Positions 12,296 to 46,932 of a DNA stretch of 64,000 bases are shown in pieces. The notes under the pieces were generated by a model. The model had not been told where the DNA came from and did no database searches. It worked only from the letters and a program-made list of their open reading frames with translations. The DNA lies in contig NC_058520.1 of assembly GCF_904849725.1 (NCBI RefSeq), positions 322,597,186 to 322,661,185 of the forward strand, written 5' to 3'. Origin of the DNA: Hordeum vulgare subsp. vulgare. Its lineage: Eukaryota; Streptophyta; Magnoliopsida; Poales; Poaceae. The translations under genes and the position numbers were made by a program. Positions within the stretch are counted from its first letter, which is position 1. Each line of letters opens with the position of its first letter.

Positions 12296-12422
12296 TGGGA
12301 TTAGGACCTATCTTTACCTATTAGCGTGTAGGTTGCCTGGACATAATAAAAATGGCGAAAGATGAATATAAATGCTAAATTATATATAAATATATTTCTT
12401 CTGTCTTTAGTAGCTACGCAAG

Positions 12423-14314: not shown

Positions 14315-14317
14315 AAG

Positions 14318-15587: not shown

Positions 15588-18500
15588 CCACTACGGTAAG
15601 TTTCTCCTCCAAACTTAGCTTGTTTTCCTCTAAAATGAGATAATTAGCCAATTTAGCTCCAAGAAGACATAATTAGGTAATTTAGCTCGAAAAAGACATA
15701 ATTAGGTAATTTAGCTCAAAAAAAACATAAAGAGGCGGAGGAGGAGGAGAAGGCCAAGGACCTTCTATCCTTCTCCTCCTCCTCCTTCTCCTCCTCATCC
15801 TCCTTCTTCTTGATTTCTTCTTCTTCTCCTCCTCCTCCTCTTTCTTCTCCTCTTTCATATTATCCTTGCTTTAATTAACCCAACAATGACATAATTAGCC
15901 CATTTAGCTCCAAAATACCATAATAAGCTCAAAATGGCACAAGAACCTTGGTTAGCTCATGAATATTATATACTTAGCTTGTTTTTCTCTAAAATGACAT
16001 AATTAGCCCATTTAACTCAAAAAAGATATAATTAGGTAATTTAGCTCCAACACGAGGAGAAGAGGAGAAGAAATAGGCAAAATGAAAAGAAAGAAGAAGA
16101 AGAGATGAAGAAGAAGAGAAGAAGGAGGAGGAGGAGGAGGAGGAGGAGGAGGACGAGGAGGAGGAGAAGGCCAAGGACCTTCTATCCTTCTCCTCCTCCT
16201 CCTTCTCCTCCTCCTCCTCCTTCTTCTTGATTTCTTCTTCTTCTCCTCCTCCTCCTCTTTGTTCTACTATTTCATATTATCCTTTCATTAATTAACCCAA
16301 CAATGACATAATTAGCCCATTTAGCTCCAAAATACCATAATAAGCTCAAAATGGCATAAGAACCTTGGTTAGCTCATGAATATTATATACTTAGCTTGTT
16401 TTCCTCTAAAATGACATAATTGGAATATTTAGCTCAAAAAAGACATAATTAGGAAATTTAGCTCCAACAAGAGGAAAAGAGGAGAAGAAATAGGCAAAAT
16501 GAAAAGAAAGAAGAAGAAGAGATGAAGAAGAAGAGAAGAAGGAGGAGGAGGAGGAGGAGGAGAAGGCCAAGGACCTTCTATCCTTCTCCTCCTCCTCCTT
16601 CTCCTCCTCCTCCTCCTTCTTCTTGATTTCTTCTTCTTCTCCTCCTCCACCTGTTTCTGCTCCTCTTTCATATTATCCTTGCTTTAATTAACCCAACAAT
16701 GACATAATTAGCCCATTTAGCTCCAAAATACCATAATAAGCTCAAAATGGCACAAGAACCTTCGTTAGCTCATGAATATTATATACTTAGCTTGTTTTTC
16801 TCTAAAATGACATAATTAGCCCATTTAGCTCAAAAAAGACATAATTAGGTAATTTAGCTCCAACACGAGGAGAAGAGGAGAAGAAATAGGCAAAATGAAA
16901 AGAAAGAAGAAGAAGAGATGAAGAAGAAGAGAAGAAGGAGGAGGAGGAGGAGGAGGAGGAGGAGGAGGAGGACGAGGAGGAGGAGAAGGCCAAGGACCTT
17001 CTATCCTTCTCCTCCTCCTCCTTCTCCTCCTCCTCCTCCTCCTTCTTGATTTCTTCTTCTTCTCCTCCTCCTCCTCTTTCTTCTCCTATTTCATATTATC
17101 CTTGCTTTAATTAACCCAACAATGACATAATTAGCCCATTTAGCTCCAAAATACCATAATAAGCTCAAAATGGCATAAGAACCTTGGTTAGCTCATGAAT
17201 ATTATATACTTAGCTTGTTTTCCTCTAAAATGACATAATTGGAATATTTAGCTCAAAAAAGACATAATTAGGTAATTTAGCTCCAACAAGAGGAGAAGAG
17301 GAGAAGAAATAGGCAAAATGAAAAGAAAGAAGAAGAAGAGATGAAGAAGAAGAGAAGAAGGAGGAGGAGTAGGAGGAGGAGCAGGAGGAGGAGAAGGCCA
17401 AGGACCTTCTATCCTTCTCCTCCTTCTCCTTCTCCTCCCCCTCCTCCTTCTTCTTGATTTCTTCTTCTTCTCCTCCTCCTCCTCTTTCTTCTCCTCTTTC
17501 ATATTATCCTTGCTTTAATTAACCCAACAATGACATAATTAGCCCATTTAGCTCCAAAATACCATAATAAGCTCAAAATGGCATAAGAACCTTGGTTAGC
17601 TCATGAATATTATATACTTAGCTTGTTTTTCTCTAAAATGACATAATTAGCCCATTTAGCTCAAAAAAGACATAATTAGGTAATTTAGCTCCAACAAGAG
17701 GAGAAGAGGAGAAGAAATAGGCAAAATGAAAAGAAAGAAGAAGAAGAGATGAAGAAGAAGAGAAGAAGGAGGAGGAGGAGGAGGAGCAGGCCAAGGACCT
17801 TCTATCCTTCTCCTCCTCCTCCTCCTCCTCCTTCTTGATTTCTTGTTCTTCTCCTCCTCCTCCTCCTCTTTCTTCTCCTCTTTCATATTATCCTAGCTTT
17901 AATTAACCCAACAATGACATAATTAGCCCATTTAGCTCCAAAATACCATAATAAGCTCAAAATGGCATAAGAACCTTGGTTAGCTCATGAATATTATATA
18001 CTTGGCTTGTTTTTCTCTAAAATGACATAATTAGCCCATTTAGCTCAAAAAAGACATAATTAGGTAATTTATCTCCAACAAGATGAGAAGAGGAGAAGAA
18101 ATAGGCAAAATGAAAAGAAAGAAGAAGAAGAGATGAAGAAGAAGAGAAGAAGGAGGAGGAGGAGGAGGAGGAGGAGGAGGAGAAGGCCAAGGACCTTCTA
18201 TCCTTCTCCTCCTCCTCCTTCTCCTCCTCCTCCTCCTTCTTCTTGATTTCTTCTTCTTCTCCTCCTCCTCCTGTTTCTGCTCCTCTTTCATATTATCCTT
18301 GCTTTAATTAACCCAACAATGACATAATTAGCCCATTTAGCTCCAAAATACCATAATAAGCTCAAAATGGCACAAGAACCTTGGTTAGCTCATGAATATT
18401 ATATACTTAGCTTGTTTTTCTCTAAAATGACATAATTAGCCCATTTAGCTCAAAAAAGACATAATTAGGTAATTTATCTCCAACACGAGGAGAAGAGGAG

Positions 18501-21500
18501 AAGAAATAGGCAAAATGAAAAGAAAGAAGAAGAAGAGATGAAGAAGAAGAGAAGAAGGAGGAGGAGGAGGAGGAGGAGGAGGAGGACGAGGAGGAGGAGA
18601 AGGCCAAGGACCTTCTATCCTTCTCCTCCTCCTCCTTCTCCTCCTCCTCCTCCTCCTTCTTGATTTCTTCTTCTTCTCCTCCTCCTCCTCTTTCTTCTCC
18701 TATTTCATATTATCCTTGCTTTAATTAACCCAACAATGACATAATTAGCCCATTTAGCTCCAAAATACCATAATAAGCTCAAAATGGCATAAGAACCTTG
18801 GTTAGCTCATGAATATTATATACTTAGCTTGTTTTCCTCTAAAATGACATAATTGGAATATTTAGCTCAAAAAAGACATAATTAGGTAATTTAGCTCCAA
18901 CAAGAGGAGAAGAGGAGAAGAAATAGGCAAAATGAAAAGAAAGAAGAAGAAGAGATGAAGAAGAAGAGAAGAAGGAGGAGGAGGAGGAGGAGGAGAAGGC
19001 CAAGGACCTTCTATCCTTCTCCTCCTCCTCCTTCTCCTCCCCCTCCTCCTTCTTCTTGATTTCTTCTTCTTCTCCTCCTCCTCCTCTTTCTTCTCCTCTT
19101 TCATATTATCCTTGCTTTAATTAACCCAACAATGACATAATTAGCCCATTTAGCTCCAAAATACCATAATAAGCTGAAAATGATATAAGAACCTTGGTTA
19201 GCTCATGAATATTATATACTTAGCTTGTTTTTCTCTAAAATGACATAATTAGCCCATTTAGCTCAAAAAAGACATAATTAGGTAATTTAGCTCCAACAAG
19301 AGGAGAAGAGGAGAAGAAATAGGCAAAATGAAAAGAAAGAAGAAGAAGAGATGAAGAAGAAGAGAAGAAGGAGGAGGAGGAGGAGGAGCAGGCCAAGGAC
19401 CTTCTATCCTTCTCCTCCTCCTCCTCCTCCTTCTTGATTTCTTGTTCTTCTCCTCCTCCTCCTCCTCTTTCTTCTCCTCTTTCATATTATCCTTGCTTTA
19501 ATTAACCCAACAATGACATAATTAGCCCATTTAGCTCCAAAATACCATAATAAGCTCAAAATGGCATAAGAACCTTGGTTAGCTCATGAATATTATATAC
19601 TTGGCTTGTTTTTCTCTAAAATGACATAATTAGCCCATTTAGCTCAAAAAAGACATAATTAGGTAATTTATCTCCAACAAGAGGAGAAGAGGAGAAGAAA
19701 TAGGCAAAATGAAAAGAAAGAAGAAGAAGAGATGAAGAAGAAGAGAAGAAGGAGGAGGAGGAGGAGGAGGAGGAGAAGGCCAAGGACCTTCTATCCTTCT
19801 CCTCCTCCTCCTTCTCCTCCTCCTCCTCCTTCTTCTTGATTTCTTCTTCTTCTCCTCCACCTCCTCTTTATTTTCCTCTTTCATATTATCCTTGCTTTAA
19901 TTAACCCAACAATGACATAATTAGCCGATTTAGCTCCAAAATACCATAATAAGCTCAAAATGGCATAAGAACCTTGGTTAGCTATGAATATTATATACTT
20001 AGCTTGTTTTTCTCTAAAATGACATAATTAGCCCATTTAGCTCAAAAAAGACATAATTAGGTAATTTATCTCCAACAAGATGAGAAGAGGAGAAGAAATA
20101 GGCAAAATGAAAAGAAAGAAGAAGAAGAGATGAAGAAGAAGAGAAGAAGGAGGAGGAGGAGGAGGAGGAGGAGGAGGAGGAGAAGGCCAAGGACCTTCTA
20201 TCCTTCTCCTCCTCCTCCTTCTCCTCCTCCTCCTCCTTCTTGATTTCTTCTTCTTCTCCTCCTCCTCCTGTTTCTGCTCCTCTTTCATATTATCCTTGCT
20301 TTAATTAACCCAACAATGACATAATTAGCCCATTTAGCTCCAAAATACCATAATAAGCTCAAAATGGCACAAGAACCTTGGTTAGCTCATGAATATTATA
20401 TACTTAGCTTGTTTTTCTCTAAAATGACATAATTAGCCCATTTAGCTCAAAAAAGACATAATTAGGTAATTTATCTCCAACACGAGGAGAAGAGGAGAAG
20501 AAATAGGCAAAATGAAAAGAAAGAAGAAGAAGAGATGAAGAAGAAGAGAAGAAGGAGGAGGAGGAGGAGGAGGAGAAGGCCAAGGACCTTCTATCCTTCT
20601 CCTCCTCCTCCTTCTCCTCCCCCTCCTCCTTCTTCTTGATTTCTTCTTCTTCTCCTCCTCCTCCTCTTTCTTCTCCTCTTTCATATTATCCTTGCTTTAA
20701 TTAACCCAACAATGACATAATTAGCCCATTTAGCTCCAAAATACCATAATAAGCTCAAAATGGCATAAGAACCTTGGTTAGCTCATGAATATTATATACT
20801 TGGCTTGTTTTTCTCTAAAATGACATAATTAGCCCATTTAGCTCAAAAAAGACATAATTAGGTAATTTATCTCCAACAAGAGGAGAAGAGGAGAAGAAAT
20901 AGGCAAAATGAAAAGAAAGAAGAAGAAGAGATGAAGAAGAAGAGAAGAAGGAGGAGGAGGAGGAGGAGGAGAAGGCCAAGGACCTTCTATCCTTCTCCTC
21001 CTCCTCCTTCTCCTCCTCCTCCTCCTTCTTCTTGATTTCTTCTTCTTCTCCTCCACCTCCTCTTTATTTTCCTCTTTCATATTATCCTTGCTTTAATTAA
21101 CCCAACAATGACATAATTAGCCGATTTAGCTCCAAAATACCATAATAAGCTCAAAATGGCATAAGAACCTTGGTTAGCTATGAATATTATATACTTAGCT
21201 TGTTTTTCTCTAAAATGACATAATTAGCCCATTTAGCTCAAAAAAGACATAATTAGGTAATTTATCTCCAACAAGATGAGAAGAGGAGAAGAAATAGGCA
21301 AAATGAAAAGAAAGAAGAAGAAGAGATGAAGAAGAAGAGAAGAAGGAGGAGGAGGAGGAGGAGGAGGAGGAGGAGGAGAAGGCCAAGGACCTTCTATCCT
21401 TCTCCTCCTCCTCCTTCTCCTCCTCCTCCTCCTTCTTCTTGATTTCTTCTTCTTCTCCTCCTCCTCCTGTTTCTGCTCCTCTTTCATATTATCCTTGCTT

Positions 21501-24500
21501 TAATTAACCCAACAATGACATAATTAGCCCATTTAGCTCCAAAATACCATAATAAGCTCAAAATGGCACAAGAACCTTGGTTAGCTCATGAATATTATAT
21601 ACTTAGCTTGTTTTTCTCTAAAATGACATAATTAGCCCATTTAGCTCAAAAAAGACATAATTAGGTAATTTATCTCCAACACGAGGAGAAGAGGAGAAGA
21701 AATAGGCAAAATGAAAAGAAAGAAGAAGAAGAGATGAAGAAGAAGAGAAGAAGGAGGAGGAGGAGGAGGAGGACGAGGAGGAGGAGAAGGCCAAGGACCT
21801 TCTATCCTTCTCCTCCTCCTCCTTCTCCTCCTCCTCCTCCTCCTTCTTGATTTCTTCTTCTTCTCCTCCTCCTCCTCTTTCTTCTCCTATTTCATATTAT
21901 CCTTGCTTTAATTAACCCAACAATGACATAATTAGCCCATTTAGCTCCAAAATACCATAATAAGCTCAAAATGGCATAAGAACCTTGGTTAGCTCATGAA
22001 TATTATATACTTAGCTTGTTTTCCTCTAAAATGACATAATTGGAATATTTAGCTCAAAAAAGACATAATTAGGTAATTTAGCTCCAACAAGAGGAGAAGA
22101 GGAGAAGAAATAGGCAAAATGAAAAGAAAGAAGAAGAAGAGATGAAGAAGAAGAGAAGAAGGAGGAGGAGGAGGAGGAGGAGAAGGCCAAGGACCTTCTA
22201 TCCTTCTCCTCCCCCTCCTCCTTCTTCTTGATTTCTTCTTCTTCTCCTCCTCCTCCTCTTTCTTCTCCTCTTTCATATTATCCTTGCTTTAATTAACCCA
22301 ACAATGACATAATTAGCCCATTTAGCTCCAAAATACCATAATAAGCTCAAAATGATATAAGAACCTTGGTTAGCTCATGAATATTATATACTTAGCTTGT
22401 TTTTCTCTAAAATGACATAATTAGCCCATTTAGCTCAAAAAAGACATAATTAGGTAATTTAGCTCCAACAAGAGGAGAAGAGGAGAAGAAATAGGCAAAA
22501 TGAAAAGAAAGAAGAAGAAGAGATGAAGAAGAAGAGAAGAAGGAGGAGGAGGAGGAGGAGCAGGCCAAGGACCTTCTATCCTTCTCCTCCTCCTCCTCCT
22601 CCTTCTTGATTTCTTGTTCTTCTCCTCCTCCTCCTCCTCTTTCTTCTCCTCTTTCATATTATCCTTGCTTTAATTAACCCAACGATGACATAATTAGCCC
22701 ATTTAGCTCCAAAATACCATAATAAGCTCAAAATGGCATAAGAACCTTGGTTAGCTCATGAATATTATATACTTGGCTTGTTTTTCCCTAAAATGACATA
22801 ATTAGCCCATTTAGCTCAAAAAAGACATAATTAGGTAATTTATCTCCAACAAGAGGAGAAGAGGAGAAGAAATAGGCAAAATGAAAAGAAAGAAGAAGAA
22901 GAGATGAAGAAGAAGAGAAGGAGGAGGAGGAGGAGGAGGAGGAGAAGGCCAAGGACCTTCTATCCTTCTCCTCCTCCTCCTTCTCCTCCTCCTCCTCCTT
23001 CTTCTTGATTTCTTCTTCTTCTCCTCCTCCTCCTCTTTATTCTCCTCTTTCATATTATCCTTGCTTTAATTAACCCAACAATGACATAATTAGCCGATTT
23101 AGCTCCAAAATACCATAATAAGCTCAAAATGGCATAAGAACCTTGGTTAGCTATGAATATTATATACTTAGCTTGTTTTTCTCTAAAATGACATAATTAG
23201 CCCATTTAGCTCTAAAAAGACATAATTAGGTAATTTAGCTCCAACAAGAGGAGAAGAGGAGAAGAAATAGGCAAAATGAAAAGAAAGAAGAAGAAGAGAT
23301 GAAGAAGAATAGAAGAAGGAGGAGGAGGAGGAGGAGGAGGAGAAGGCCAAGGACCTTCTATCCTTCTGCTCCTCCTCCTCCTTCTTCTTGATTTCTTATT
23401 CTTCTCCTCCTCCTCCTCTTTCTTCTCCTCTTTCATATTATCCTTGCTTTAATTAACCCAACAATGACATAATTAGCCCATTTAGCTCCAAAATACCATA
23501 ATAAGCTCAAAATGGCATAAGAACCTTGGTTAGCTATGAATATTATATACTTAGCTTGTTTTTCTCTAAAAGGACATAATTAGCCCATTTAGCTCAAAAA
23601 AGACATAATTAGGTAATTTAGCTCCAACAAGAGGAAAAGAGGAGAAGAAATAGGCAAAATTAAAAGAAAGAAGAAGAAGAGATGAAGAAGAAGAGAAGAA
23701 GGAGGAGGAGGAGGAGGAGGAGAAGGCCAAGGACCTTCTATCCTTCTCCTGCTCCTCCTTCTCCTCCTCCTCCTCCTTCTTCTTGATTTCTTCTTCTTCT
23801 CCTCCTCCTCCTCTTTCTTCTCCTCTTTCATATTATCCTTGCTTTAATTAACCCAACAATGACATAATTAGCCCATTTAGCTCCAAAATAACATAATAAG
23901 CTCAAAATGGCATAAGAACCTTGGTTAGCTCATGAATATTATATACTTGGCTTGTTTTTCTCAAAAATGACATAATTAGCCCATTTAGCTCAAAAAAGAC
24001 ATAATTAGGTAATTTAGCTCCAACAAGAGGAGAAGAGGAGAAGAAATAGGCAAAATGAAAAGAAAGAAGAAGAAGAGATGAAGAAGAATAGAAGAAGGAG
24101 GAGGAGGAGGAGGAGGAGGAGGAGGAGAAGGCCAAGGACCTTCTATCCTTCTCCTCCTCCTCCTTCTCCTCCCCCTCCTCCTTCTTCTTGATTTCTTCTT
24201 CTTCTCCTCCTCCTCCTCTTTCTTCTTCTCTTTCATATTATCCTTGCTTTAATTAACCCAACAATGACATAATTATCCCATTTAGCTCCAAAATACCATA
24301 ATAAGCTCAAAATGGCATAAGAACCTTTGTTAGCTCATGAATATTATATACTTAGCTTGTTTTTCTCTAAAATGACATAATTAGCCCATTTAGCTCAAAA
24401 AAGACATAATTAGGTAATTTCGCTCCAACAAGAGGAGAATAGGAGAAGAAATAGGCAAAATGAAAAGAAAGAAGAAGAAGAGATGAAGAAGAAGAGAAGA

Positions 24501-27500
24501 AGGACGAGGAGGAGGAGGAGGAGGAGGAGAAGGCCAAGGACCTTCTATCCTTCTCCTCCTCCTCCTTCTCCTCCTCCTCCTCCTTCTTCTTGATTTCTAC
24601 TTCTTCTCCTCCTCCTCCTCCTCTTTCTTCTCCTCTTTCGTATTATCCTTGCTTTAATTAACCCAACAATGACATAATTAGCCCATTTAGCTCCAAAATA
24701 CCATAATAAGCTCAAAATGGCATAAGAACCTTGGTTAGCTCATGAATATTATATACTTAGCTTGTTTTTCTCTAAAATGACATAATTAGCCCATTTAGCT
24801 CAAAAAAGACATAATTAGGTAATTTAGCTCCAACAAGTGGAGAAGAGGAGAAGAAATAGGCAAAATGAAAAGAAAGAAGAAGAAGAGATGAAGAAGAAGA
24901 GAAGAAGGAGGAGGAGGAGGAGGAGGAGGAGGAGGAGGAGGAGGAGGAGATGGCCAAGGACCTTCTATCCTTCTCCTCCTCCTCCTTCTCCTCCCCCTCC
25001 TCCTTCTTCTTGATTTCTTCTTCTTCTCCTCCTCCTCCTCTTTCTTCTCCTCTTTCATATTATCCTTGCTTTAATTAACCCAACAATGACATAATTAGCC
25101 CATTTAGCTCCAAAATACCATAATAAGCTCAAAATGGCATAAGAACCTTGGTTAGCTCATGAATATTATATACTTAGCTTGTTTTTCTCTAAAATGACAT
25201 AATTAGCCCATTTAGCTCAAAAAAGACATAATTAGGTAATTTAGCTCCAACAAGAGGAGAATAGGAGAAGAAATAGGCAAAATGAAAAGAAAGAAGAAGA
25301 AGAGATGAAGAAGAAGAGAAGAAGGAGGAGCAGGAGGAGGAGGAGGAGGAGGAGGAGAAGGCCAAGGACCTTCTATCCTTCTCCTCCTCCTCCTTCTCCT
25401 CCTCCTCCTCCTTCTTCTTGATTTCTTCTTCTTCTCCTCCTCCTCCTCCTCTTCCTTCTCCTCTTTCATATTATCCTTGCTTTAATTAACCCAACAATGA
25501 CATAATTAGCCCATTTAGCTCCAAAATACCATAATAAGCTCAAAATGGCATAAGAACCTTGGTTAGCTCATGAATATTATATACTTGGCTTGTTTTTCTC
25601 TAAAATGACATAATTAGCCCATTTAGCTCAAAAAAGACATAATTAGGTAATTTAGCTCCAACAAGAGGAGAATAGGAGAAGAAATAGGCAAAATGAAAAG
25701 AAAGAAGAAGAAGAGATGAAGAAGAAGAGAAGAAGGAGGAGGAGGAGGAGGAGGAGGAGGAGGAGGAGAAGGCCAAGGACCTTCTATCCTACTCCTCCTC
25801 CTCCTTCTCCTCCCCCTCCTCCTTCTTCTTGATTTATTCTTCTTCTCATCCTCCTCCTCTTTCTTCTCCTCTTTCATATTATCCTTGCTTTAATTAACCC
25901 AGCAATGACATAATTAGCCCATTTAGCTCCAAAATACCATAATAAGCTCAAAATGGCATAAGAACCTTGGTTAGCTCATGAATATTATATACTTAGCTTG
26001 TTTTTCTCTAAAATGACATAATTAGCCCATTTAGCTCAAAAAAGACATAATTAGGTAATTTAGCTCCAACAAGTGGAGAAGAGGAGAAGAAATAGGCAAA
26101 ATGAAAAGAAAGAAGAAGAAGAGATGAAGAAGAAGAGAAGAAGGAGGAGGAGGAGGAGGAGGAGGAGGAGGAGAAGGCCAAGGACCTTCTATCCTTCTCC
26201 TCCTCCTCCTTCTCCTCCCCCTACTCCTTCTTCTTGATTTCTTCTTCTTCTCCTCCTCCTCCTCTTTCTTCTCCTCTTTCATATTATCCTTGCTTTAATT
26301 AACCCAACAATGACATAATTAGCCCATTTAGCTCCAAAATACCATAATAAGCTCAAAATGGCATAAGAACCTTGGTTAGCTCATGAATATTATATACTTA
26401 GCTTGTTTTTCTCTAAAATGACATAATTAGCCCATTTAGCTCAAAAAAGACATAATTAGGTAATTTCGCTCCAACAAGAGGAGAATAGGAGAAGAAATAG
26501 GCAAAATGAAAAGAAAGAAGAAGAAGAGATGAAGAAGAAGAGAAGAAGGAGGAGGAGGAGGAGGAGGAGGAGGAGAAGGCCAAGGACCTTCTATCCTTCT
26601 CCTCCTCCTCCTTCTCCTTCTTCATGATTTCTACTTCTTCTCCTCCTCCTCCTCCTCTTTCTTCTCCTCTTTCGTATTATCCTTGCTTTAATTAACCCAA
26701 CAATGACATAATTAGCCCATTTAGCTCCAAAATACCATAATAAGCTCAAAATGGCATAAGAACCTTGGTTAGCTCATGAATATTATATACTTAGCTTATT
26801 TTTCTCTAAAATGACATAATTAGCCCATTTAGCTCAAAAAAGACATAATTAGGTAATTTAGCTCCAACAAGAGGAGAAGAGGAGAAGAAATAGGCAAAAT
26901 GAAAAGAAAGAAGAAGAAGAGATGAAGAAGAAGAGAAGAAGGAGGAGGAGGAGGAGGAGGAGGAGGAGGAGGAGGAGAAGGCCAAGGACCTTCTATCCTT
27001 CTCCTCCTCCTCCTTCTCCTCCCCCTCCTCCTTCTTCTTGATTTCTTCTTCTTCTCCTCCTCCTCCTCTTTCTTCTCCTCTTTCATATTATCCTTTCTTT
27101 AATTAACCCAACAATGACATAATTAGCCCATTTAGCTCCAAAATACCATAATAAGCTCAAAATGGCATAAGAACCTTGGTTAGCTCATGAATATTATATA
27201 CTTAGCTTGTTTTTCTCTAAAATGACATAATTAGCCCATTTAGCTCAAAAAAGACATAATTAGGTAATTTAGCTCCAACAAGAGGAGAAGAGGAGAAGAA
27301 ATAGGCAAAATGAAAAGAAAGAAGAAGAAGAGATGAAGAAGAAGAGAAGAAGGAGGAGGAGGAGGAGGAGGAGGAGAAGGCCAAGGGCCTTCTATCCTTC
27401 TCCTCCTCCTCCTTCTCCTCCTCCTCCTCCTTCTTGATTTCTTCTTCTTCTCCTCCTCCTCCTCTTTCTTCTCCTATTTCATATTATCCTTGCTTTAATT

Positions 27501-33500: not shown

Positions 33501-33597
33501 CCAAAATACCATAATAAGCTCAAAATGGCATAAGAACCTTGGTTAGCTATGAATATTATATACTTAGCTTGTTTTTCTCTAAAATGACATAATTAGC

Positions 33598-36500
33598 CCA
33601 TTTAGCTCAAAAAAGACATAATTAGGTAATTTAGCTCCAACAAGAGGAGAAGAGGAGAAGAAATAGGCAAAATGAAAAGAAAGAAGAAGAAGAGATGAAG
33701 AAGAAGAGAAGAAGGAGGAGGAGGAGGAGGAGGAGAAGGCCAATGACCTTCTATCCTTCTCCTCCTCCTCCTTCTCCTCCTCCTCCTCCTTCTTGATTTC
33801 TTCTTCTCCTCCTCCTCCTCTTTCTTCTCCTCTTTCATATTATCCTTGCTTTAATTAACCCAACAATGACATAATTAGCCGATTTTGCTCCAAAATACCA
33901 TAATAATCTCAAAATGACATAAGAACCTTGGTTAGCTATGAATATTATATACTTAGCTTGTTTTTCTCTAAAATGACATAATTAGCCCATTTAGCTCAAA
34001 AAAGACATAATTAGGTAATTTAGCTCCAACAAGAGGAGAAGAGGAGAAGAAATAGGCAAAATGAAAAGAAAGAAGAAGAAGAGATGAAGAAGAAGAGAAG
34101 AAGAAGGAGGAGGAGGAGGAGGAGGAGGAGGAGAAGGCCAAGGACCTTCTATCCTTCTCCTCCTCCTCCTTCTCCTCCTCCTCCTCCTCCTTCTTGATTT
34201 CTTTTTCTTCTCCTCCTCCTCCTCCTCTTTCTTCTCCTCTTTCATATTATCCTTGCTTTAATTAACCCAACAATGACATAATTAGCCCATTTAGCTCCAA
34301 AATAACATAATAAGCTCAAAATGGCATAAGAACCTTGGTTAGCTCATGAATATTATATACTTGGCTTGTTTTTCTCTAAAATGACATAATTAGCCCATTT
34401 AGCTCAAAAAATACATAACTAGGTAATTTAGCTCCAACAAGAGGAGAAGAGGAGAAGAAATAGGCAAAATGAAAAGAAAGAAGAAGAAGAGATGAAGAAA
34501 AAGAGAAGAAGGAGGAGGAGGAGGAGAAGGCCAAGGACCTTCTATCCTTCTCCTCCTCCTCCTTCTCCTCCTCCTCCTCCTTCTTCTTGATTTCTTCTTC
34601 TTCTCCTCCTCCTCCTCTTTCTTCTCCACTTTCATATTATCCTTGCTTTAATTAACCCAACAATGACATAATTAGCAGATTTAGCTCCAAAATACCATAA
34701 TAAGCTCAAAATGGCATAAGAACCTTGGTTAGCTATGAATATTATATACTTAGCTTGTTTTTCTCTAAAATGACATAATTAGCCCGTTTAGCTCAAAAAA
34801 GACATAATTAGGTAATTTAGCTCCAACAAGAGGAGAAGAGGAGAAGAAATAGGCAAAATGAAAAGAAAGAAGAAGAAGAGATGAAGAAGAAGAGAAGAAG
34901 GAGGAGGAGGAGGAGGAGGAGAAGGCCAATGACCTTCTATCCTTCTCCTCCTCCTCCTTCTCCTCCTCCTCCTCCTTCTTCTTGATTTCTTCTTCTCCTC
35001 CTCCTCCTCTTTCTTCTCCTCTTTCATATTATCCTTGCTTTAATTAACCCAACAATGACATAATTAGCCGATTTTGCTCCAAAATACCATAATAAGCTCA
35101 AAATGACATAAGAACCTTGGTTAGCTATGAATATTATATACTTAGCTTGTTTTTCTCTAAAATGACATAATTAGCCCATTTAGCTCAAAAAAGACATAAT
35201 TAGGTAATTTAGCTCCAACAAGAGGAGAAGAGGAGAAGAAATAGGCAAAATGAAAAGAAAGAAGAAGAAGAGATGAAGAAGAAGAGAAGAAGAAGGAGGA
35301 GGAGGAGGAGGAGGAGGAGGAGAAGGCCAAGGACCTTCTATCCTTCTCCTCCTCCTCCTTCTCCTCCTCCTCCTCCTCCTTCTTGATTTCTTTTTCTTCT
35401 CCTCCTCCTCCTCCTCTTTCTTCTCCTCTTTCATATTATCCTTGCTTTAATTAACCCAACAATGACATAATTAGCCCATTTAGCTCCAAAATAACATAAT
35501 AAGCTCAAAATGGCATAAGAACCTTGGTTAGCTCATGAATATTATATACTTGGCTTGTTTTTCTCTAAAATGACATAATTAGCCCATTTAGCTCAAAAAA
35601 TACATAACTAGGTAATTTAGCTCCAACAAGAGGAGAAGAGGAGAAGAAATAGGCAAAATGAAAAGAAAGAAGAAGAAGAGATGAAGAAAAAGAGAAGAAG
35701 GAGGAGGAGGAGGAGAAGGCCAAGGACCTTCTATCCTTCTCCTCCTCCTCCTTCTCCTCCTCCTCCTCCTTCTTCTTGATTTCTTCTTCTTCTCCTCCTC
35801 CTCCTCTTTCTTCTCCTCTTTCATATTATCCTTGCTTTAATTAACCCAACAATGACATAATTAGCAGATTTAGCTCCAAAATACCATAATAAGCTCAAAA
35901 TGGCATAAGAACCTTGGTTAGCTATGAATATTATATACTTAGCTTGTTTTTCTCTAAAATGACATAATTAGCCCATTTAGCTCAAAAAAGACATAATTAG
36001 GTAATTTAGCTCCAACAAGAGGAGAAGAGGAGAAGAAATAGGCAAAATGAAAAGAAAGAAGAAGAAGAGATGAAGAAGAAGAGAAGAAGGAGGAGGAGGA
36101 GGAGGAGGAGAAGGCCAATGACCTTCTATCCTTCTCCTCCTCCTCCTTCTCCTCCTCCTCCTCCTTCTTCTTGATTTCTTCTTCTCCTCCTCCTCCTCTT
36201 TCTTCTCCTCTTTCATATTATCCTTGCTTTAATTAACCCAACAATGACATAATTAGCCGATTTTGCTCCAAAATACCATAATAAGCTCAAAATGACATAA
36301 GAACCTTGGTTAGCTATGAATATTATATACTTAGCTTGTTTTTCTCTAAAATGACATAATTAGCCCATTTAGCTCAAAAAAGACATAATTAGGTAATTTA
36401 GCTCCAACAAGAGGAGAAGAGGAGAAGAAATAGGCAAAATGAAAAGAAAGAAGAAGAAGAGATGAAGAAGAAGAGAAGAAGAAGGAGGAGGAGGAGGAGG

Positions 36501-37166
36501 AGGAGGAGGAGAAGGCCAAGGACCTTCTATCCTTCTCCTCCTCCTCCTACTCCTCCTCCTCCTCCTCCTTCTTGATTTCTTTTTCTTCTCCTCCTCCTCC
36601 TCCTCTTTCTTCTCCTCTTTCATATTATCCTTGCTTTAATTAACCCAACAATGACATAATTAGCCCATTTAGCTCCAAAATAACATAATAAGCTCAAAAT
36701 GGCATAAGAACCTTGGTTAGCTCATGAATATTATATACTTGGCTTGTTTTTCTCTAAAATGACATAATTATCCCATTTAGCTCAAAAAATACATAACTAG
36801 GTAATTTAGCTCCAACAAGAGGAGAAGAGGAGAAGAAATAGGCAAAATGAAAAGAAAGAAGAAGAAGAGATGAAGAAAAAGAGAAGAAGGAGGAGGAGGA
36901 GGAGAAGGCCAAGGACCTTCTATCCTTCTCCTCCTCCTCCTTCTCCTCCTCCTCCTCCTTCTTCTTGATTTCTTCTTCTTCTCCTCCTCCTCCTCTTTCT
37001 TCTCCTCTTTCATATTATCCTTGCTTTAATTAACCCAACAATGACATAATTAGCCGATTTTGCTCCAAAATACCATAATAAGCTCAAAATGACATAAGAA
37101 CCTTGGTTAGCTATGAATATTATATACTTAGCTTGTTTTTCTCTAAAATGACATAATTAGCCCATT
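33598..37166. repeat. Higher-order repeat: three copies of a three-unit block
   Basis: The variant core GGCCAATGACC occurs with a fixed spacing: the GAAGGC before it starts at 33735, 34921 and 36110, i.e. 1,186 and 1,189 bases apart. The two units after each also repeat in the same order, one with a GAAGAAGGAGG start of the purine run and one with the variants AAATACATAACTAGG and GATGAAGAAAAAGAG. The blocks are nearly identical, pointing to recent amplification of three units at a time. Confidence 0.85.
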
Positions 37167-40100
37167 TAGCTCAAAAAAGACATAATTAGGTAATTTAGCT
37201 CCAACAAGAGGAGAAGAGGAGAAGAAATAGGCAAAATGAAAAGAAAGAAGAAGAAGAGATGAAGAAGAAGAGAAGAAGGAGGAGGAGGAGGAGGAGGAGG
37301 AGGAGAAGGCCAAGGACCTTCTATCCTTCTCCACCTCCTCCTTCTCCTCCTCCTCCTTCTTCTTCTTGATTTCTTCTTCTTCTCCTCCTCCTCCTCTTTC
37401 TTCTCCTCTTTCATATTATCCTTGTTTTAATTAACCCAACAATGACATAATTAGCCCATTTAGCTCCAAAATACCATAATAAGCTCAAAATGGCATAAGA
37501 ACCTTGGTTAGCTATGAATATTATATACTTAGCTTGTTTTTCTCTAAAATGACATAATTAGCCCATTTAGCTCAAAAAAGACATAATTAGGTAATTTAGC
37601 TCCAACAAGAGGAGAAGAGGGGAAGAAATAGGCAAAATGAAAAGAAAGAAGAAGAAGAGATGAAGAAGAAGAGAAGAAGGAGGAGGAGGAGGAGGAGGAG
37701 AAGGCCAAGGACCTTCTATCCTTCTCCTCCTCCTCCTTCTTCTTGATTTCTTCTTCTTCTCCTCCTCCTCCTCTTTCTTCTCCTCTTTCATATTATCCTT
37801 GCTTTAATTAACCCAACAATGACATAATTAGCCCATTTAGCTCCAAAATAACATAATAAGCTCAAAATGGCATAAGAACCTTGGTTAGCTCATGAATATT
37901 ATATACTTAGCTTGTTTTTCTCTAAAATGACATAATTAGCCCATTTATCTCAAAAAAGACATAATTAGGTAATTTAGCTCCAACAAGAGGAGAAGAGGAG
38001 AAGAAATAGGCAAAATGAAAAGAAAGAAGAAGAAGAGATGAAGAAGAAGAGAAGAAGAAGGAGGAGGAGGAGGAGCAGCAGGAGGAGGAGGAAAAGGCCA
38101 AGGACCTTCTATCCTTCTCCTCCTCCTCCTTCTCGTCCTCCTCCTCCTTCTTCTTGATTTCTTCTTCTTCTCCTCCTCCTCCTCTTTCTTCTCCTCTTTC
38201 ATATTATCCTTGCTTTAATTAACCCAACAATGACATAATTAGCCCATTTAGCTCCAAAATACCATAATAAGCTCAGAATGGCATAAGAACCTTGTTTAGC
38301 TCATGAATATTATGTACTTGGCTTGTTTTTCTCTAAAATGACATAATTAGCCCATTTAGCTCAAAAAAGACATAATTAGGTAATTTAGCTCCAACAAGAG
38401 GAGAAGAGGAGAAGAAATAGGCAAAATGAAAAGAAAGAAGAAGAAGAGATGAAGAAGAAGAGAAGAACGAGGAGGAGGAGGAGGAGGAGGAGGAGGAGAA
38501 GGCCAAGGACCTTCTATCCTTCTCCTCCTCCTCCTTCTCCTCCTCCTCCTCCTTCTTCTTGATTTCTTCTTCTTCTCCTCCTCCTCCTCTTTCTTCTCCT
38601 CTTTCATATTATCCTTGCTTTAATTAACCCAACAATGACATAATTAGCCCATTTAGCTCCAAAATAACATAATAAGCTCGAAATGGCATAAGAACCTTGG
38701 TTAGCTCATGAATATTATATACTTAGCTTGTTTTTCTCTAAAATGACTTAATTAGCCCATTTAGCTCAAAAAAGACATAATTAGGTAATTTAGCTCCAAC
38801 AAGAGGAGAAGAGGAGAAGAAATAGGCAAAATGAAAAGAAAGAAGAAGAAGAGATGAAGAAGAAGAGAAGAAGGAGGAGGAGGAGGAGGAGGAGGAGGAG
38901 GAGAAGGCCAAGGACCTTCTATCCTTCTCCTCCTCCTCCTTCTCCTCCTCCTCCTCCTTCTTCTTGATTTCTTCTTCTTCTCCTCCTCCTCCTCCTCTTT
39001 CTTCTCCTCTTTCATATTATCCTTGCTTTAATTAACCCAACAATGACATAATTAGCCCATTTAGCTCCAAAATAACATAATAAGCTCAAAATGGCAAAGA
39101 ACCTTGGTTAGCTCATGAATATTATATACTTGGCTTGTTTTTCTCTAAAATGACATAATTAGCCCATTTAGCTCAAAAAAGACATAACTAGGTAATTTAG
39201 CTCCAACAAGAGGAGAAGAGGAGAAGAAATAGGCAAAATGAAAAGAAAGAAGAAGAAGAGATGAAGAAAAAGAGAAGAAGGAGGAGGAGGAGGAGGAGGA
39301 GGAGGAGAAGGCCAAGGACCTTCTATCCTTCTCCTCCTCCTCCTTCTCCTCCTCCTCCTCCTTCTTCTTGATTTCTTCTTCTTCTCCTCCTCCTCCTCTT
39401 TATTCTCCTCTTTCATATTATCCTTGCTTTAATTAACCCAACAATGACATAATTAGCCAATTTTGCTCCAAAATACCATAATAAGCTCAAAATGACATAA
39501 GAACCTTGGTTAGCTATGAATATTATATACTTAGCTTGTTTTTCTCTAAAATGACATAATTAGCCCATTTAGCTCAAAAAAGACATAATTAGGTAATTTA
39601 GCTCCAACAAGAGGAGAAGAGGAGAAGAAATAGGCAAAATGAAAAGAAAGAAGAAGAAGAGATGAAGAAGAAGAGAAGAAGAAGGAGGAGGAGGAGGAGG
39701 AGGAGGAGGAGAAGGCCAAGGACCTTCTATCCTTCTCCTCCTCCTCCTTCTCCTCCTCCTCCTCCTCCTTCTTGATTTCTTTTTCTTCTCCTCCTCCTCG
39801 TCCTCTTTCTTCTCCTCTTTCATATTATCCTTGCTTTAATTAACCCAACAATGACATAATTAGCCCATTTAGCTCCAAAATAACATAATAAGCTCAAAAT
39901 GGCATAAGAACCTTGGTTAGCTCATGAATATTATATACTTGGCTTGTTTTTCTCTAAAATGACATAATTAGCCCATTTAGCTCAAAAAATACATAACTAG
40001 GTAATTTAGCTCCAACAAGAGGAGAAGAGGAGAAGAAATAGGCAAAATGAAAAGAAAGAAGAAGAAGAGATGAAGAAAAAGAGAAGAAGAAGGAGGAGGA

Positions 40101-43100
40101 GGAGGAGGAGGAGGAGGAGAAGGCCAAGGACCTTCTATCCTTCTCCTCCTCCTCCTTCTCCTCCTCCTCCTCCTTCTTCTTGATTTCTTCTTCTTCTCCT
40201 CCTCCTCCTCTTTCTTCTCCTCTTTCATATTATCCTTGCTTTAATTAACCCAACAATGACATAATTAGCCGATTTTGCTCCAAAATACCATAATAAGCTC
40301 AAAATGACATAAGAACCTTGGTTAGCTATGAATATTATATACTTAGCTTGTTTTTCTCTAAAATGACATAATTAGCCCATTTAGCTCAAAAAAGACATAA
40401 TTAGGTAATTTAGCTCCAACAAGAGGAGAAGAGGAGAAGAAATAGGCAAAATGAAAAGAAAGAAGAAGAAGAGATGAAGAAGAAGAGAAGAAGGAGGAGG
40501 AGGAGGAGGAGGAGGAGGAGAAGGCCAAGGACCTTCTATCCTTCTCCACCTCCTCCTTCTCCTCCTCCTCCTTCTTCTTCTTGATTTCTTCTTCTTCTCC
40601 TCCTCCTCCTCTTTCTTCTCCTCTTTCATATTATCCTTGTTTTAATTAACCCAACAATGACGTAATTAGCCCATTTAGCTCCAAAATACCATAATAAGCT
40701 CAAAATGGCATAAGAACCTTGGTTAGCTATGAATATTATATCCTTAGCTTGTTTTTCTCTAAAATGACATAATTAGCCCATTTAGCTCAAAAAAGACATA
40801 ATTAGGTAATTTAGCTCCAACAAGAGGAGAAGAGGGGAAGAAATAGGCAAAATGAAAAGAAAGAAGAAGAAGAGATGAAGAAGAAGAGAAGAAGGAGGAG
40901 GAGGAGGAGGAGGAGAAGGCCAAGGACCTTCTATCCTTCTCCTCCTCCTCCTTCTCCTCCTCCTCCTCCTTCTTCTTGATTTCTTCTTCTTCTCCTCCTC
41001 CTCCTCTTTCTTCTCCTCTTTCATATTATCCTTGCTTTAATTAACCCAACAATGACATAATTAGCCCATTTAGCTCCAAAATAACATAATAAGCTCAAAA
41101 TGGCATAAGAACCTTGGTTAGCTCATGAATATTATATACTTAGCTTGTTTTTCTCTAAAATGACATAATTAGCCCATTTATCTCAAAAAATACATAATTA
41201 GGTAATTTAGCTCCAACAAGAGGAGAAGAGGAGAAGAAATAGGCAAAATGAAAAGAAAGAAGAAGAAGAGATGAAGAAGAAGAGAAGAAGAAGGAGGAGG
41301 AGGAGGAGCAGCAGGAGGAGGAGGAAAAGGCCAAGGACCTTCTATCCTTCTCCTCCTCCTCCTTCTCGTCCTCCTCCTCCTTCTTCTTGATTTCTTCTTC
41401 TTCTCCTCCTCCTCCTCTTTCTTCTCCTCTTTCATATTATCCTTGCTTTAATTAACCCAACAATGACATAATTAGCCCATTTAGCTCCAAAATACCATAA
41501 TAAGCTCAGAATGGCATAAGAACCTTGGTTAGCTCATGAATATTATGTACTTGGCTTGTTTTTCTCTAAAATGACATAATTAGCCCATTTAGCTCAAAAA
41601 AGACATAATTAGGTAATTTAGCTCCAACAAGAGGAGAAGAGGAGAAGAAATAGGCAAAATGAAAAGAAAGAAGAAGAAGAGATGAAGAAGAAGAGAAGAA
41701 CGAGGAGGAGGAGGAGGAGGAGGAGGAGGAGGAGAAGGCCAAGGACCTTCTATCCTTCTCCTCCTCCTCCTTCTCCTCCTCCTCCTCCTTCTTCTTGATT
41801 TCTTCTTCTTCTCCTCCTCCTCCTCTTTCTTCTCCTCTTTCATATTATCCTTGCTTTAATTAACCCAACAATGACATAATTAGCCCATTTAGCTCCAAAA
41901 TAACATAATAAGCTCGAAATGGCATAAGAACCTTGGTTAGCTCATGAATATTATATACTTAGCTTGTTTTTCTCTAAAATGACATAATTAGCCCATTTAG
42001 CTCAAAAAAGACATAATTAGGTAATTTAGCTCCAACAAGAGGAGAAGAGGAGAAGAAATAGGCAAAATGAAAAGAAAGAAGAAGAAGAGATGAAGAAGAA
42101 GAGAAGAAGAAGGAGGAGGAGGAGGAGGAGGAGGAGGAGGAGAAGGCCAAGGACCTTCTATCCTTCTCCTCCTCCTCCTTCTCCTCCTCCTCCTCCTTCT
42201 TCTTGATTTCTTCTTCTTCTCCTCCTCCTCCTCCTCTTTCTTCTCCTCTTTCATATTATCCTTGCTTTAATTAACCCAACAATGACATAATTAGCCCATT
42301 TAGCTCCAAAATAACATAATAAGCTCAAAATGGCAAAGAACCTTGGTTAGCTCATGAATATTATATACTTGGCTTGTTTTTCTCTAAAATGACATAATTA
42401 GCCCATTTAGCTCAAAAAAGACATAACTAGGTAATTTAGCTCCAACAAGAGGAGAAGAGGAGAAGAAATAGGCAAAATGAAAAGAAAGAAGAAGAAGAGA
42501 TGAAGAAAAAGAGAAGAAGGAGGAGGAGGAGGAGGAGGAGGAGGAGGAGAAGGCCAAGGACCTTCTATCCTTCTCCTCCTCCTCCTTCTCCTCCTCCTCC
42601 TCCTTCTTCTTGATTTCTTCTTCTTCTCCTCCTCCTCCTCTTTCTTCTCCTCTTTCATATTATCCTTGCTTTAATTAACCCAACAATGACATAATTAGCC
42701 GATTTAGCTCCAAAATACCATAATAAGCTCAAAATGACATAAGAACCTTTGTTAGCTATGAATATTATATACTTAGCTTGTTTTTCTCTAAAATGACATA
42801 ATTAGCCCATTTAGCTCAAAAAAGACATAATTAGGTAATTTAGCTCCAACAAGAGGAGAAGAGGAGAAGAAATAGGCAAAATGAAAAGAAAGAAGAAGAA
42901 GAGATGAAGAAGAAGAGAAGAAGGAGGAGGAGGAGGAGGAGGAGGAGAAGGCCAAGGACCTTCTATCCTTCTCCTCCTCCTCCTTCTCCTCCTCCTCCTC
43001 CTTCTTCTTGATTTCTTCTTCTTCTCCTCCTCCTCCTCTTTCTTCTCCTCTTTCATATTATCCTTGCTTTAATTAACCCACAAATGACATAATTAGCCCA

Positions 43101-43200
43101 TTTAGCTCCAAAATACCATAATAAGCTCAAAATGGCATAAGAACCTTGGTTAGCTATGAATATTATATACTTGGCTTGTTTTTCTCTAAAATGACATAAT
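36777..43200. repeat. Higher-order repeat: 3.23-kb (eight-unit) duplication
   Basis: Rare variants recur at one offset. GAGCAGCAGGAGG starts at 38073 and 41306, and ATTATGTACTT starts at 38309 and 41542, both 3,233 bases apart. The same pair also occurs at 32915 and 33151, 5,158 bases left of the first. Unit order around them is kept (for example the TCTCCACCTCC unit at about 37330 and 40550). This is a segmental duplication of about eight units with a further related block to the left. Confidence 0.8.
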
Positions 43201-45631
43201 TAGCCCATTTAGCTCAAAAAAGACATAATTAGGTAATTTAGCTCCAACAATAGGAGAAGAGGAGAAGAAATAGGCAAAATGAAAAGAAAGAAGAAGAAGA
43301 GATGAAGAAGAAGAGAAGAACGAGGAGGAGGAGGAGGAGGAGGAGGAGGAGAAGGCCAAGGACCTTCTATCCTTCTCCTCCTCCTCCTTCTCCTGCTCCT
43401 CCTCCTTCTTCTTGATTTCTTCTTCTTCTCCTCCTCCTCCTCTTTCTTCTCCTCTTTCATATTATCCTTGCTTTAATTAACCCAACAATGACATAATTAG
43501 CCCATTTAGCTCCAAAATAACATAATAAGCTCAAAATGGCATAAGAACCTTGGTTAGCTCATGAATATTATATACTTAGCTTGTTTTTCTCTAAAATGAC
43601 ATAATTAGCACATTTAGCTCAAAAAAGACATAATTAGGTAATTTAGCTCCAACAAGAGGAGAAGAGGAGAAGAAATAGGCAAAATGAAAAGAAAGAAGAA
43701 GAAGAGATGAAGAAGAAGAGAAGAAGAAGGAGGAGGAGGAGGAGCAGCAGGAGGAGGAGGAGAAGGCCAAGGACCTTCTATCCTTCTCCTCCTCCTCCTC
43801 CTTCTTCTTGATTTCTTCTTCTTCTCCTCCTCCTCCTCTTGCTTCTCCTCTTTCATATTATCCTTGCTTTAATTAACCCAACAATGACATAATTAGCCCA
43901 TTTAGCTCCAAAATACCATAATAAGCTCAGAATGGCATAAGAACCTTGGTTAGCTCATGAATATTATATACTTGGCTTGTTTTTCTCTAAAATGACATAA
44001 TTAGCCCATTTAGCTCAAAAAAGACATAATTAGGTAATTTAGCTCCAACAAGAGGAGAAGAGGAGAAGAAATAGGCAAAATGAAAAGAAAGAAGAAGAAG
44101 AGATGAAGAAGAAGAGAAGAACGAGGAGGAGGAGTAGGAGGAGGAGGAGGAGGAGAAGGCCAAGGACCTTCTATCCTTCTCCTCCTCCTCCTTCTCCTCC
44201 TCCTCCTCCTTCTTCTTGATTTCTTCTTCTTCTCCTCCTCCTCCTCTTTCTTCTCCTCTTTCATATTATCCTTGCTTTAATTAACCCAACAATGACATAA
44301 TTAGCCCATTTAGCTCCAAAATACCATAATAAGCTCAAAATGGCATAAGAACCTTGGTTAGCTCATGAATATTATATACTTAGCTTGTTTTTCTCTAAAA
44401 TGACATAATTAGCCCATTTAGCTCAAAAAATACATAATTAGGTAATTTAGCTCCAAGAAGAGGAGAAGAGGATAAGAAATAGGCAAAATGAAAAGAAAGA
44501 AGAAGAAGAGATGAAGAAGAAGAGAAGAAGAAGAAGGAGGAGGAGGAGGAGGAGGAGGAGAAGGCCAAGGACCTTCTATCCTTCTCCTCCTCCTCCTTCT
44601 CCTCCTCCTCCTCCTTCTTCTTGATTTCTTCTTCTTCTACTCCTCCTCCTCTTTCTTCTCCTCTTTCATATTATCCTTGCTTTAATTAACCCAACAATGA
44701 CATAATTAGCCCATTTAGCTCCAAAATACCATAATAAGCTCAAAATGGCATAAGAACCTTGGTTAGCTCATGAATATTATATACTTAGCTTGTTTTTCTC
44801 TAAAATGACATAATTAGCCCATTTAGCTCAAAAAATACATAATTAGGTAATTTAGCTCCAAGAAGAGGAGAAGAGGATAAGAAATAGGCAAAATGAAAAG
44901 AAAGAAGAAGAAGAGATGAAGAAGAAGAGAAGAAGAAGAAGGAGGAGGAGGAGGAGGAGGAGAAGGCCAAGGACCTTCTATCCTTCTCCTCCTCCTCCTT
45001 CTCCTCCTTCTTCTTGATTTCTTCTTCTTCTCCTCCTCCTCCTCTTTCTTCTCCTCTTTCATATTATCCTTGCTTTAATTAACCCAACAATGACATAATT
45101 AGCCCATTTAGCTCCAAAATACCATAATAAGCTCAAAATGCCATAAGAACCTTGGTTAGCTCATGAATATTATATACTTAGCTTGTTTTTCTCTAAAATG
45201 ACATAATTAGCCCATTTAGCTCAAAAAAGACATAATTAGGTAATTTAGCTCCAACAAGAGGAGAAGAGGAGAAGAAATAGGCAAAATGAAAAGAAAGAAG
45301 AAGAAGAGATGAAGAAGAAGAGAAGAAGAAGGAGGAGGAGGAGGAGGAGGAGGAGGAGGAGAAGGCCAAGGACCTTCTATCCTTCTCCTCCTCCTCCTTC
45401 TCCTCCTCCTCCTCCTCCTTCTTGATTTCTTTTTCTTCTCCTCCTCCTCCTCCTCTTTCTTCTCCTCTTTCATATTATCCTTGCTTTAATTAACCCAACA
45501 ATGACATAATTAGCCCATTTAGCTCCAAAATACCATAATAAGCTCAAAATGGCATAAGAACCTTGGTTAGCTCATGAATATTATATACTTAGCTTGTTTT
45601 CCTCTAAAATGACATAATTGGAATATTTAGC

Positions 45632-45955
45632 TCAAAAAGAAGGAGAAGGAAGAAGAAGAAGAAGAGAAGAAGAATAGAAGGAGAAGGAGAAGAATAAGGA
45701 GGAGGAGGAGAAGAAGAAGGAGGAGGAGGAGAAGAAGAGAAGAAGAAGGAGAAGGAGGAGAAGAAGAAGGAGAAGGAGAAGGAGCCTTCTTCTCCTTCTT
45801 CTTCTCTCCTTCTTCTCCTCCTTCTTCTCATTCTTCTTCTCTTCTTTTTTCTTCTTCTCCTCCTCCTTCTCCTTCTCCTTCCCCTTCCCCTCCTCCTCCT
45901 CCTCCTTGTTTTTCTTCTCCTTGTTCTCTTATTGCTTCTTCTCTTTCTTCTTCAA
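45632..45955. repeat. Purine/pyrimidine inverted repeat after the array
   Basis: About 150 bases of GAAGGAGAAGAAG-type purine sequence up to 45784 are followed directly by about 170 bases of CTTCTTCTCC-type pyrimidine sequence. The turn is at GGAGAAGGAGCCTTCTTCTCC. It is organised like one array unit but with longer, less regular arms and no AT-rich part. Confidence 0.8.
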
Positions 45956-46022
45956 TTTAGCTTATTTGTCATATATATGTTGTTGTTCTTCTTCTACTTA
46001 CTTTCTTATTCCCATTTTGCAG

Positions 46023-46330
46023 ATTGGATGTACTACATGCATGGAAGCTGGCATTGGAGTGCTTTAGTTTCCGTTTTTATTTGAGTTGATGAACAATGTG
46101 TTGGTTCTTTGTATGTGTTGATCAACAATATATGTGCAACTATATGTATGTATATATGGATGAAACTTCGTATGTGTTGGTTCTTTTGATATATGGGATG
46201 TACGTTGATGAACAAATGGCATTGATGAGCTTTATATGTATATCATATATGTGTTGTGATCTATTTATGATATATGTGCTCTGAATTATATGTATATGTG
46301 ATGTGAAATAGAAAAAATAAATAAAAATGG
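46023..46330 (+). other. 3' untranslated exon of the CACTA transcript
   Basis: It follows the acceptor TTTTGCAG and starts ATTGGATGTACTACATGC. It is T- and TATG-rich without a coding frame. GAAAAAATAAATAAAAATGG near 46311 could serve as a polyadenylation region. No reading frame was found that joins it to the second gene, whose stop is at 15585-15587. Confidence 0.45.
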
Positions 46331-46339
46331 GACAATATA

Positions 46340-46912: not shown

Positions 46913-46914
46913 AG

Positions 46915-46929
46915 GTGATTCCTGTAGTG
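46915..46929 (+). repeat. Right terminal inverted repeat of the CACTA element
   Basis: GTGATTCCTGTAGTG is the inverted counterpart of the left end and is followed by TTT (46930-46932), the second copy of the target duplication. Confidence 0.9.
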
Positions 46930-46932
46930 TTT

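Follow-up and report, generated by a model that had tools for sequence, protein, structure and literature searches.

We analysed a 64,000-bp stretch of the barley genome (Hordeum vulgare subsp. vulgare, NC_058520.1, forward-strand positions 322,597,186 to 322,661,185; hereafter, the window), in which a CACTA transposon carries a tandem array of ≈400-bp units between a splice donor that follows the stop codon of its second gene and an acceptor close to its 3′ end. Genome searches covered the whole assembly (4,214,333,890 bases), in which the window sits on a 621.5-Mb sequence (C3), with the array at C3:322.61-322.64 Mb. The features that bear on the array are given here by window position and strand.

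10197..10199, +, left target-site duplication (TSD), TTT
10200..46929, +, CACTA element from terminal inverted repeat (TIR) to TIR, 36,730 bp, recognised by its TIRs, subterminal TTTGCCGTCTGCC repeats, TSD TTT and an empty paralogous site
14318..15587, +, second gene, stop TGA at 15585-15587; no Pfam match for its first open reading frame (ORF)
15596..46022, +, intron of the 3′ untranslated region (UTR) by its ends, 30,427 bp; donor GTAAGT at 15596, acceptor CATTTTGCAG ending at 46022, both shared by related copies
15613..45880, +, tandem array; opens with a partial unit at 15613, followed by 75 units with anchors, each ~400 bp long
46023..46340, +, 3′-UTR exon; divergence from four other copies 1.3-1.6%
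46340..46929, +, 3′ subterminal region with TTTGCCGTCTGCC repeats and the 3′ TIR
46930..46932, +, right TSD, TTT
50845..52395, +, paralogous target copy without the element, empty site near 51783, found by alignment to the flanks

The element, its array and the intron ends

We find that the TIRs of the element begin CACTA (CACTACTGGAATTCC / CACTACAGGAATCACC), with CACTACTGGAATTCC starting at 10200, GGTGATTCCTGTAGTG running up to 46929 and TTT flanking both, that TTTGCCGTCTGCC motifs recur near its 5′ and 3′ ends, and that it encodes a transposase of the tnp2 type (Transposase_21), though this gene is broken by a frameshift, with a deletion after it. The TSD is 3 bp long in each complete copy: TTT in the window, ATG in c3_361 and TAT in c5_157 (both described below). 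A 3-bp TSD by itself is weak proof of insertion; in the window it is accompanied by an empty site, since the two flanks, once joined, match 51386-52181 over 796 bp that span the insertion point (87.7% identity, 2 gap positions), and a single TTT and no element are found there. Both target duplications are intact, as a preliminary description made from the letters of this DNA had stated. The target was a repeated sequence, with 9255-10199 matching 50845-51783 (84%) and 46929-47539 matching 51780-52395 (87%). The long repeat concerned is present in three copies, at 5614-6949 (inverted), 9255-10199/46930-47539 (interrupted by the element) and 50845-52395.

Tandem Repeats Finder reports the array at 15732-45879, with a period of 405, 75.3 copies and 94% matches, and a search for a 25-nt anchor word of the unit, allowing up to 4 edits, places 75 units from 15957 to 45572. 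The 30,427-bp intron makes up 83% of the 36,730-bp element, which agrees with the preliminary picture of about 75 units of about 400 bp dominating a 36.7-kb transposon. Across 73 intervals from anchor to anchor, including one of 778 bp that spans two units, pairwise identity averages 97.5%. Each unit combines an AT-rich core with a GAA-rich and a TTC-rich arm, the arms forming an imperfect inverted repeat, and a single unit is predicted to fold into a long GAA/TTC hairpin at -73.3 kcal/mol, compared to -40.3 kcal/mol (standard deviation 4.0) for 100 shuffles, none of which is as stable (z = -8.2). Unit-like sequence (92% over 84 bp) is present from 17 nt past the first base of the donor, and the array ends ~140 bp short of the acceptor.

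The donor GTAAGT at 15596 follows the stop TGA (15585-15587) of the second gene after 8 nt, just as described before; in other copies this gap is 11 nt in the same frame by eye, the reading frame of the stop itself also having been judged by eye. 3′-UTR introns so near the stop are not known to provoke nonsense-mediated decay. A simple rule for acceptors (≥12 of 15 pyrimidines, no AG in the preceding 14 nt) picks out three sites in the intron, at 17895, 45959 and 46021. The earlier proposal took the site ending at 46022 as the first convincing acceptor, right after the array; the site at 45959, also past the array, comes before it. By the same rule the unit has 0 acceptor-like sites per dimer, compared to an average of 2.3 in shuffles, 6% of which have none; the acceptor-free unit is suggestive only. 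Among 10 sequences scanned for conservation of the GT...AG ends, the donor is present in 7 and the acceptor in 9, with AG kept in all 9; the left side lies outside the fetched stretch in two of the 10, c5_157 is without a donor, and no acceptor was found in c1_409. A copy at C1:35.62 Mb has GG in place of the acceptor AG. From these sites we infer splicing across the 30-kb array.

Related copies, intron lengths and abundance

A genome search with the unit, in which 40 of 2,076 first-look candidates were scored, gives ~32 loci with matches on all seven large sequences, and we read 11 of these, the window and ten others that are mostly the best-scoring. Landmarks of the same element family lie beside the units in all 11. 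Unit numbers at the other loci are ~74, 45, 36, 32, 16, 14, 11, 6 and 4, several of them truncated where the retrieved stretch ends or is masked, with those of c1_409, c4_279 and c2_497 being lower bounds or cut.

Three complete copies, those of the window, c3_361 and c5_157, differ in their TSDs and carry a tandem array within the element boundaries at independent insertions. The element of c3_361 (C3:361.70 Mb, TSD ATG) is 14.0 kb long and has 4 units in its 3′ intron. In this intron a GC-rich, gene-fragment-like stretch of ~1.1 kb separates the partial first unit from the array; c5_157 shares part of this stretch, and it is absent from the window copy. The element of c5_157 (C5:157.57-157.61 Mb, TSD TAT) is 21.3 kb long and holds 45 units and no gene landmark, in the order TIR, 5′ part, GC-rich insert, 45 units, 3′ exon, TIR, and is thus a transposable satellite in the literal sense. 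Of the remaining copies, c3_183 (C3:183.42-183.47 Mb) has 9 + 65 units, and c2_497 and c6_383 form a diverged group with a 3′ exon of 70-72% identity.

Upstream of the second gene, the window element contains three further features.

10729..12410, +, probable 5′ intron with TTTAG and GAA-rich repeats; GTAAGT at 10729, the acceptor near 12410 being a guess
11726..11824, +, unit-like stretch inside the 5′ intron with 95% identity to the consensus unit
12423..14314, +, remnants of the transposase with the Pfam domains Transpos_assoc (PF13963) and Transposase_21 (PF02992)

Transposase_21 is found in two frames (E = 7e-21 and 3e-44), split at a C run near 13470, and ~1.88 kb is absent near 14252 relative to c3_361, c1_207, c3_255 and c6_383, while the second gene is ~1.28 kb shorter near 14945 than in c3_361, c1_207, c3_183 and c6_383. 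Judged by these losses, the window element is a deletion derivative, unable in its present form to make a whole transposase, and the earlier suggestion that transposon genes upstream would not notice the expansion is inapplicable to this copy. The ends of the 5′ intron were judged by eye. Two other copies have unit anchors upstream of the transposase as well: c3_361 (one anchor, in the 5′ intron) and c3_255 (4). Also upstream of the transposase start, 12080-12111 and 12264-12295 form a 32-bp inverted repeat (97% complementary, 152 nt spacing). Outside the element, 55888-56762 (-) holds pieces of a Copia-type reverse transcriptase (RVT_2, PF07727) in two ORFs.

We find the exact 34-nt donor word 916 times in the genome (459 + 457 on the two strands), the exact 34-nt acceptor word 1,942 times (976 + 966) and the exact 25-nt unit anchor 16,982 times (8,470 + 8,512), with 0 matches for each reversed control. 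The more than twofold excess of acceptors over donors fits many gene-less derivatives like c5_157, and faster change on the donor side could do likewise. With 50 of the 75 window anchors exact, the anchor count corresponds to ~25,000 units, 10 Mb or 0.24% of the assembly, as a rough estimate. Unit words gave 0 matches in viral and general genome contig collections, which is uninformative for a plant repeat.

Intron lengths were taken on C1 below 189 Mb, among the matches listed and with exact donor and acceptor words required. Half of the 48 exact donors pair with a same-strand exact acceptor downstream within 60 kb, 23 of these 24 within 12 kb, whereas the controls give 0 pairs on the wrong strand and 1 upstream. 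The 24 paired introns span 626-11,361 bp plus one doubtful case of 44.5 kb, with a median of 3.0 kb, and seven of them, picked from the shorter ones, contain 0, 2, 3, 3, 2, 4 and 6 anchors. Unit number does then differ between loci, one of the checks proposed at the outset, and ranges from 0 to ~74 in the other copies read. On C1 below 41.4 Mb the anchors form 41 clusters. Of these, 23 are accompanied by an exact donor or acceptor word or by another cluster on the same strand 7.5-11.3 kb off, a spacing close to the distance from the 5′ to the 3′ intron. Among five of the remaining 18 that were read, four end at the same or a diverged 3′ exon and one enters unrelated sequence. Together with the landmarks at 11 of 11 loci (no 3′ exon being found in c1_409), this mostly favours the idea that the units occur in CACTA copies of this family only.

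Probable origin, transport and growth of the array

The position of the first anchor points to the source of the unit. In all six small introns with anchors it lies 386-420 bp past the donor, and in the window and c3_183 ~350-365 bp past it; because the sequence between donor and first anchor is unit-like, the first part of the intron is, as its letters read, itself unit 1. The 626-bp intron, which lacks a full anchor, is likewise made of such unit-like sequence. The array did not begin in the window copy.

Two unit subtypes, A (ATTAGCCCATTT) and B (ATTGGAATATTT), are set apart by four linked differences, none of them in a consensus CpG. Both coexist in the window, c3_183, c1_207, c5_157, c6_276 and c3_361, and all six arrays open with an A unit and close with a B unit, with B accounting for 6 of the 75 window units. 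Only B is found in c4_279 (left edge unread), and there is no B among the array units of c2_497, c1_409, c6_383 and c3_255, except for one edge unit of c3_255. Core divergence is 2.60% within the window array and 3.0-5.2% relative to arrays of the same group, and outside the array the window element is, in most parts, 1.0-2.9% different from c3_361, c1_207, c3_183 and c6_276, with higher values of 5.8-5.9% at the 3′ end of two copies and of 10-14% where the nested copy of c3_183 was matched instead. Core divergence is thus comparable to divergence elsewhere in the element, and a large share of the unit diversity seems to date back to the split between the copies; the arrays probably travelled with the element. 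The window array has evidently also grown in place, by block duplications private to it that cover 3-7 units with 3-8 substitutions in all (u52-58/u60-66 with 8 substitutions over ~2.8 kb, u45-49/u48-52, u6-10/u14-18 and four more of 3-4 units). The nearest relative of 71 of 74 window units lies within the same array, and no multi-unit order is common to the window array and the ten other arrays (best 5-unit diagonal 0.980, compared to 0.997 within the array). The alternative first posed, that the element either moved with the array or grew it in place, is probably best answered by both, on the strength of subtypes shared by six loci and of private block duplications.

We consider it quite likely that the array is the overgrown 3′-UTR intron of one high-copy barley CACTA family, which travels by transposition and then grows or shrinks alone at each insertion. 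Several observations weigh against this. The A...B edge rule covers part of the family only, as the last unit of the small introns L036 and L037 is not B; gene conversion between loci could likewise produce shared subtypes, and repeats may evolve more quickly than other parts of the element. The array of c3_183 is interrupted, apparently by a nested, diverged CACTA copy (transposase 85% identical), and c1_409 (C1:409.52-409.54 Mb) has gene 2 upstream, 16 anchors and no 3′ exon found downstream. The cluster at C1:14.78 Mb, one of five read among those lacking exact landmarks, passes into unrelated GC-rich sequence after three units, so that units outside elements are possible. The register with the donor is not universal either: the first anchor lies ~120 bp after the donor in c6_383, ~1.5 kb in c3_361, ~1.8 kb in c6_276 and ~2.6 kb in c1_207; the gap of c3_361 holds the GC-rich insert. 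A genome search for the exon-exon junction without the intron, at up to 2 mismatches, gives 0 matches, and the defects of the window copy mean that it is no longer under selection for splicing.

These last two points, along with the copy whose acceptor reads GG, would suit an array that is not intronic in practice, with transcripts ending or being processed inside it and the donor and acceptor being relics. We judge this rather unlikely, given that both sites are kept in the copies read with those regions and in 916 and 1,942 exact words across the genome, and that the unit is free of the acceptor-like sites expected from shuffled dimers, the 6% of shuffles without any notwithstanding. Free satellite arrays might also have come first, been captured by CACTA elements and then spread, as proposed for Chenopodium, where captured satellite DNA in CACTA elements is described together with a related array without a CACTA link (parts of PMC8978399). 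The C1 cluster that runs into unrelated sequence and the four copies without a simple register are in keeping with capture; we nonetheless regard it as improbable, since the first anchor lies about one unit past the donor, with unit-like sequence between, in six small introns, the window and c3_183, the anchorless 626-bp intron is made of the same kind of sequence, and all 11 loci read (of ~32) belong to one element family.

An array that grew wholly after the window insertion, starting with one or two units, would account for the private block duplications and for the closeness of 71 of 74 units to another in the same array. The two linked subtypes common to six loci and a core divergence of 2.6%, comparable to that between copies outside the array, make this explanation improbable. 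A unit number raised or collapsed by the assembly is a natural concern, tandem arrays being error-prone, and is very improbable here: the window is free of N and the longest exact repeat within the array is 720 bp, so a gross artefact is unlikely, although units may be miscounted; the units differ by a median of 9 substitutions, and arrays of many sizes occur at other loci.

Known satellites and the meaning of the array

Satellites borne by CACTA elements are already known from Chenopodium, and what differs here is the intron as the probable place of birth and growth. The CACTA-like element Jozin of Chenopodium quinoa has an internal satellite of 32.5 monomers of 171 bp (5,550 bp); like the barley element, it is a CACTA with a tandem array near its 3′ end in several copies, with monomers 97.7-98.8% similar, and unlike the barley array, its satellite is much shorter, is termed captured or added, and is described in the passages concerned without an intron placement or a graded series of units (PMC8978399). 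CficCl-61-40 was likewise born from a CACTA element (Jozin), but its monomer comes from the tnp2 transposase domain and not from an intron, by the part of the report that treats it (PMC7320549). ENSAT1, from the 5′ UTR of Atenspm, and PisTR-A, from the 3′ UTR of Ogre, are likewise satellites from untranslated parts of transposable elements; they differ in that the relevant passages mention no intron and that Ogre is a long terminal repeat retrotransposon (PMC9659126). The wheat CACTA element 'Conan' also contains Triticeae satellite sequence, of the Afa family, but as a single unit in the section that describes it (PMC3017796). TaeSat01-584 and similar wheat satellites are dispersed and likewise thought to derive from or be part of CACTA elements; as far as the passages on them go, their EnSpm/CACTA homology is by RepeatMasker only and comes with no position within an element (PMC10827815). 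Among the literature matches listed, no satellite array placed in a transposon intron is found by title or abstract opening.

The closest counterpart in barley is HvuSat02-444, which the parts of PMC11447152 that describe it give as the second most abundant Hordeum vulgare satellite (0.55% of the genome, 59% AT), related to EnSpm/CACTA over 95-100% of its sequence (a figure joint with HvuSat01), with a core called a sequence of unknown origin. Its (TTC)n-core-(GAA)n inverted-repeat cassette matches the sequence and the predicted fold of our unit; its many loci are scattered along the chromosomes, and the best unit matches fall on all seven large sequences (PMC11447152). The two differ in length (444 bp with a 174-bp core, 130/174/139, compared to ~400 bp with a ~200-bp core), and their abundances, 0.55% and a rough 0.24%, are broadly alike as far as a comparison by description goes (PMC11447152). 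A literature search by name finds HvuSat02-444 in PMC11447152 alone.

In the scheme that we propose, the unit would be the ~390 bp with which the intron itself begins, comprising an AT-rich core and GAA/TTC arms able to fold back. Duplication of this first segment, and later of blocks of 3-9 units, the pattern seen in the arrays, would lengthen the intron, and slippage, unequal exchange or break repair, aided by the GAA/TTC fold-back, may be the mechanism of growth. With the donor and acceptor left in place at either end of the intron, the transcript should not change. Transposition would bring the array of an element to new sites, as the subtypes common to loci with different TSDs suggest, and each array would then grow or shrink independently after insertion, as the private block duplications suggest. 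The units of the 5′ intron would flank the genes as direct repeats, and a gene-less element of the c5_157 type may be mobilised in trans by the transposase of other copies.

How satellites originate and how they arrive on many chromosomes at once is an old question. The few dozen copies measured here, out of hundreds, make up a graded series at one position, running from an anchorless intron of 626 bp to one of 30 kb with 75 units, and the first duplication, block growth, transport and gene loss are therefore open to dating. The location of the repeat where splicing could hide it suggests how its growth may have been tolerated. The satellite spread by this CACTA family is probably among the most abundant in the barley genome, and we lean, with some reserve, towards the view that the second most abundant satellite of barley consists mainly of the self-multiplied introns of one CACTA family, born, tolerated and spread by way of a spliced-out intron and shedding gene-less 'TIR-satellite-TIR' elements. 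If the unit is HvuSat02-444, an origin would have been found for a major barley satellite whose core had been described as of unknown origin.

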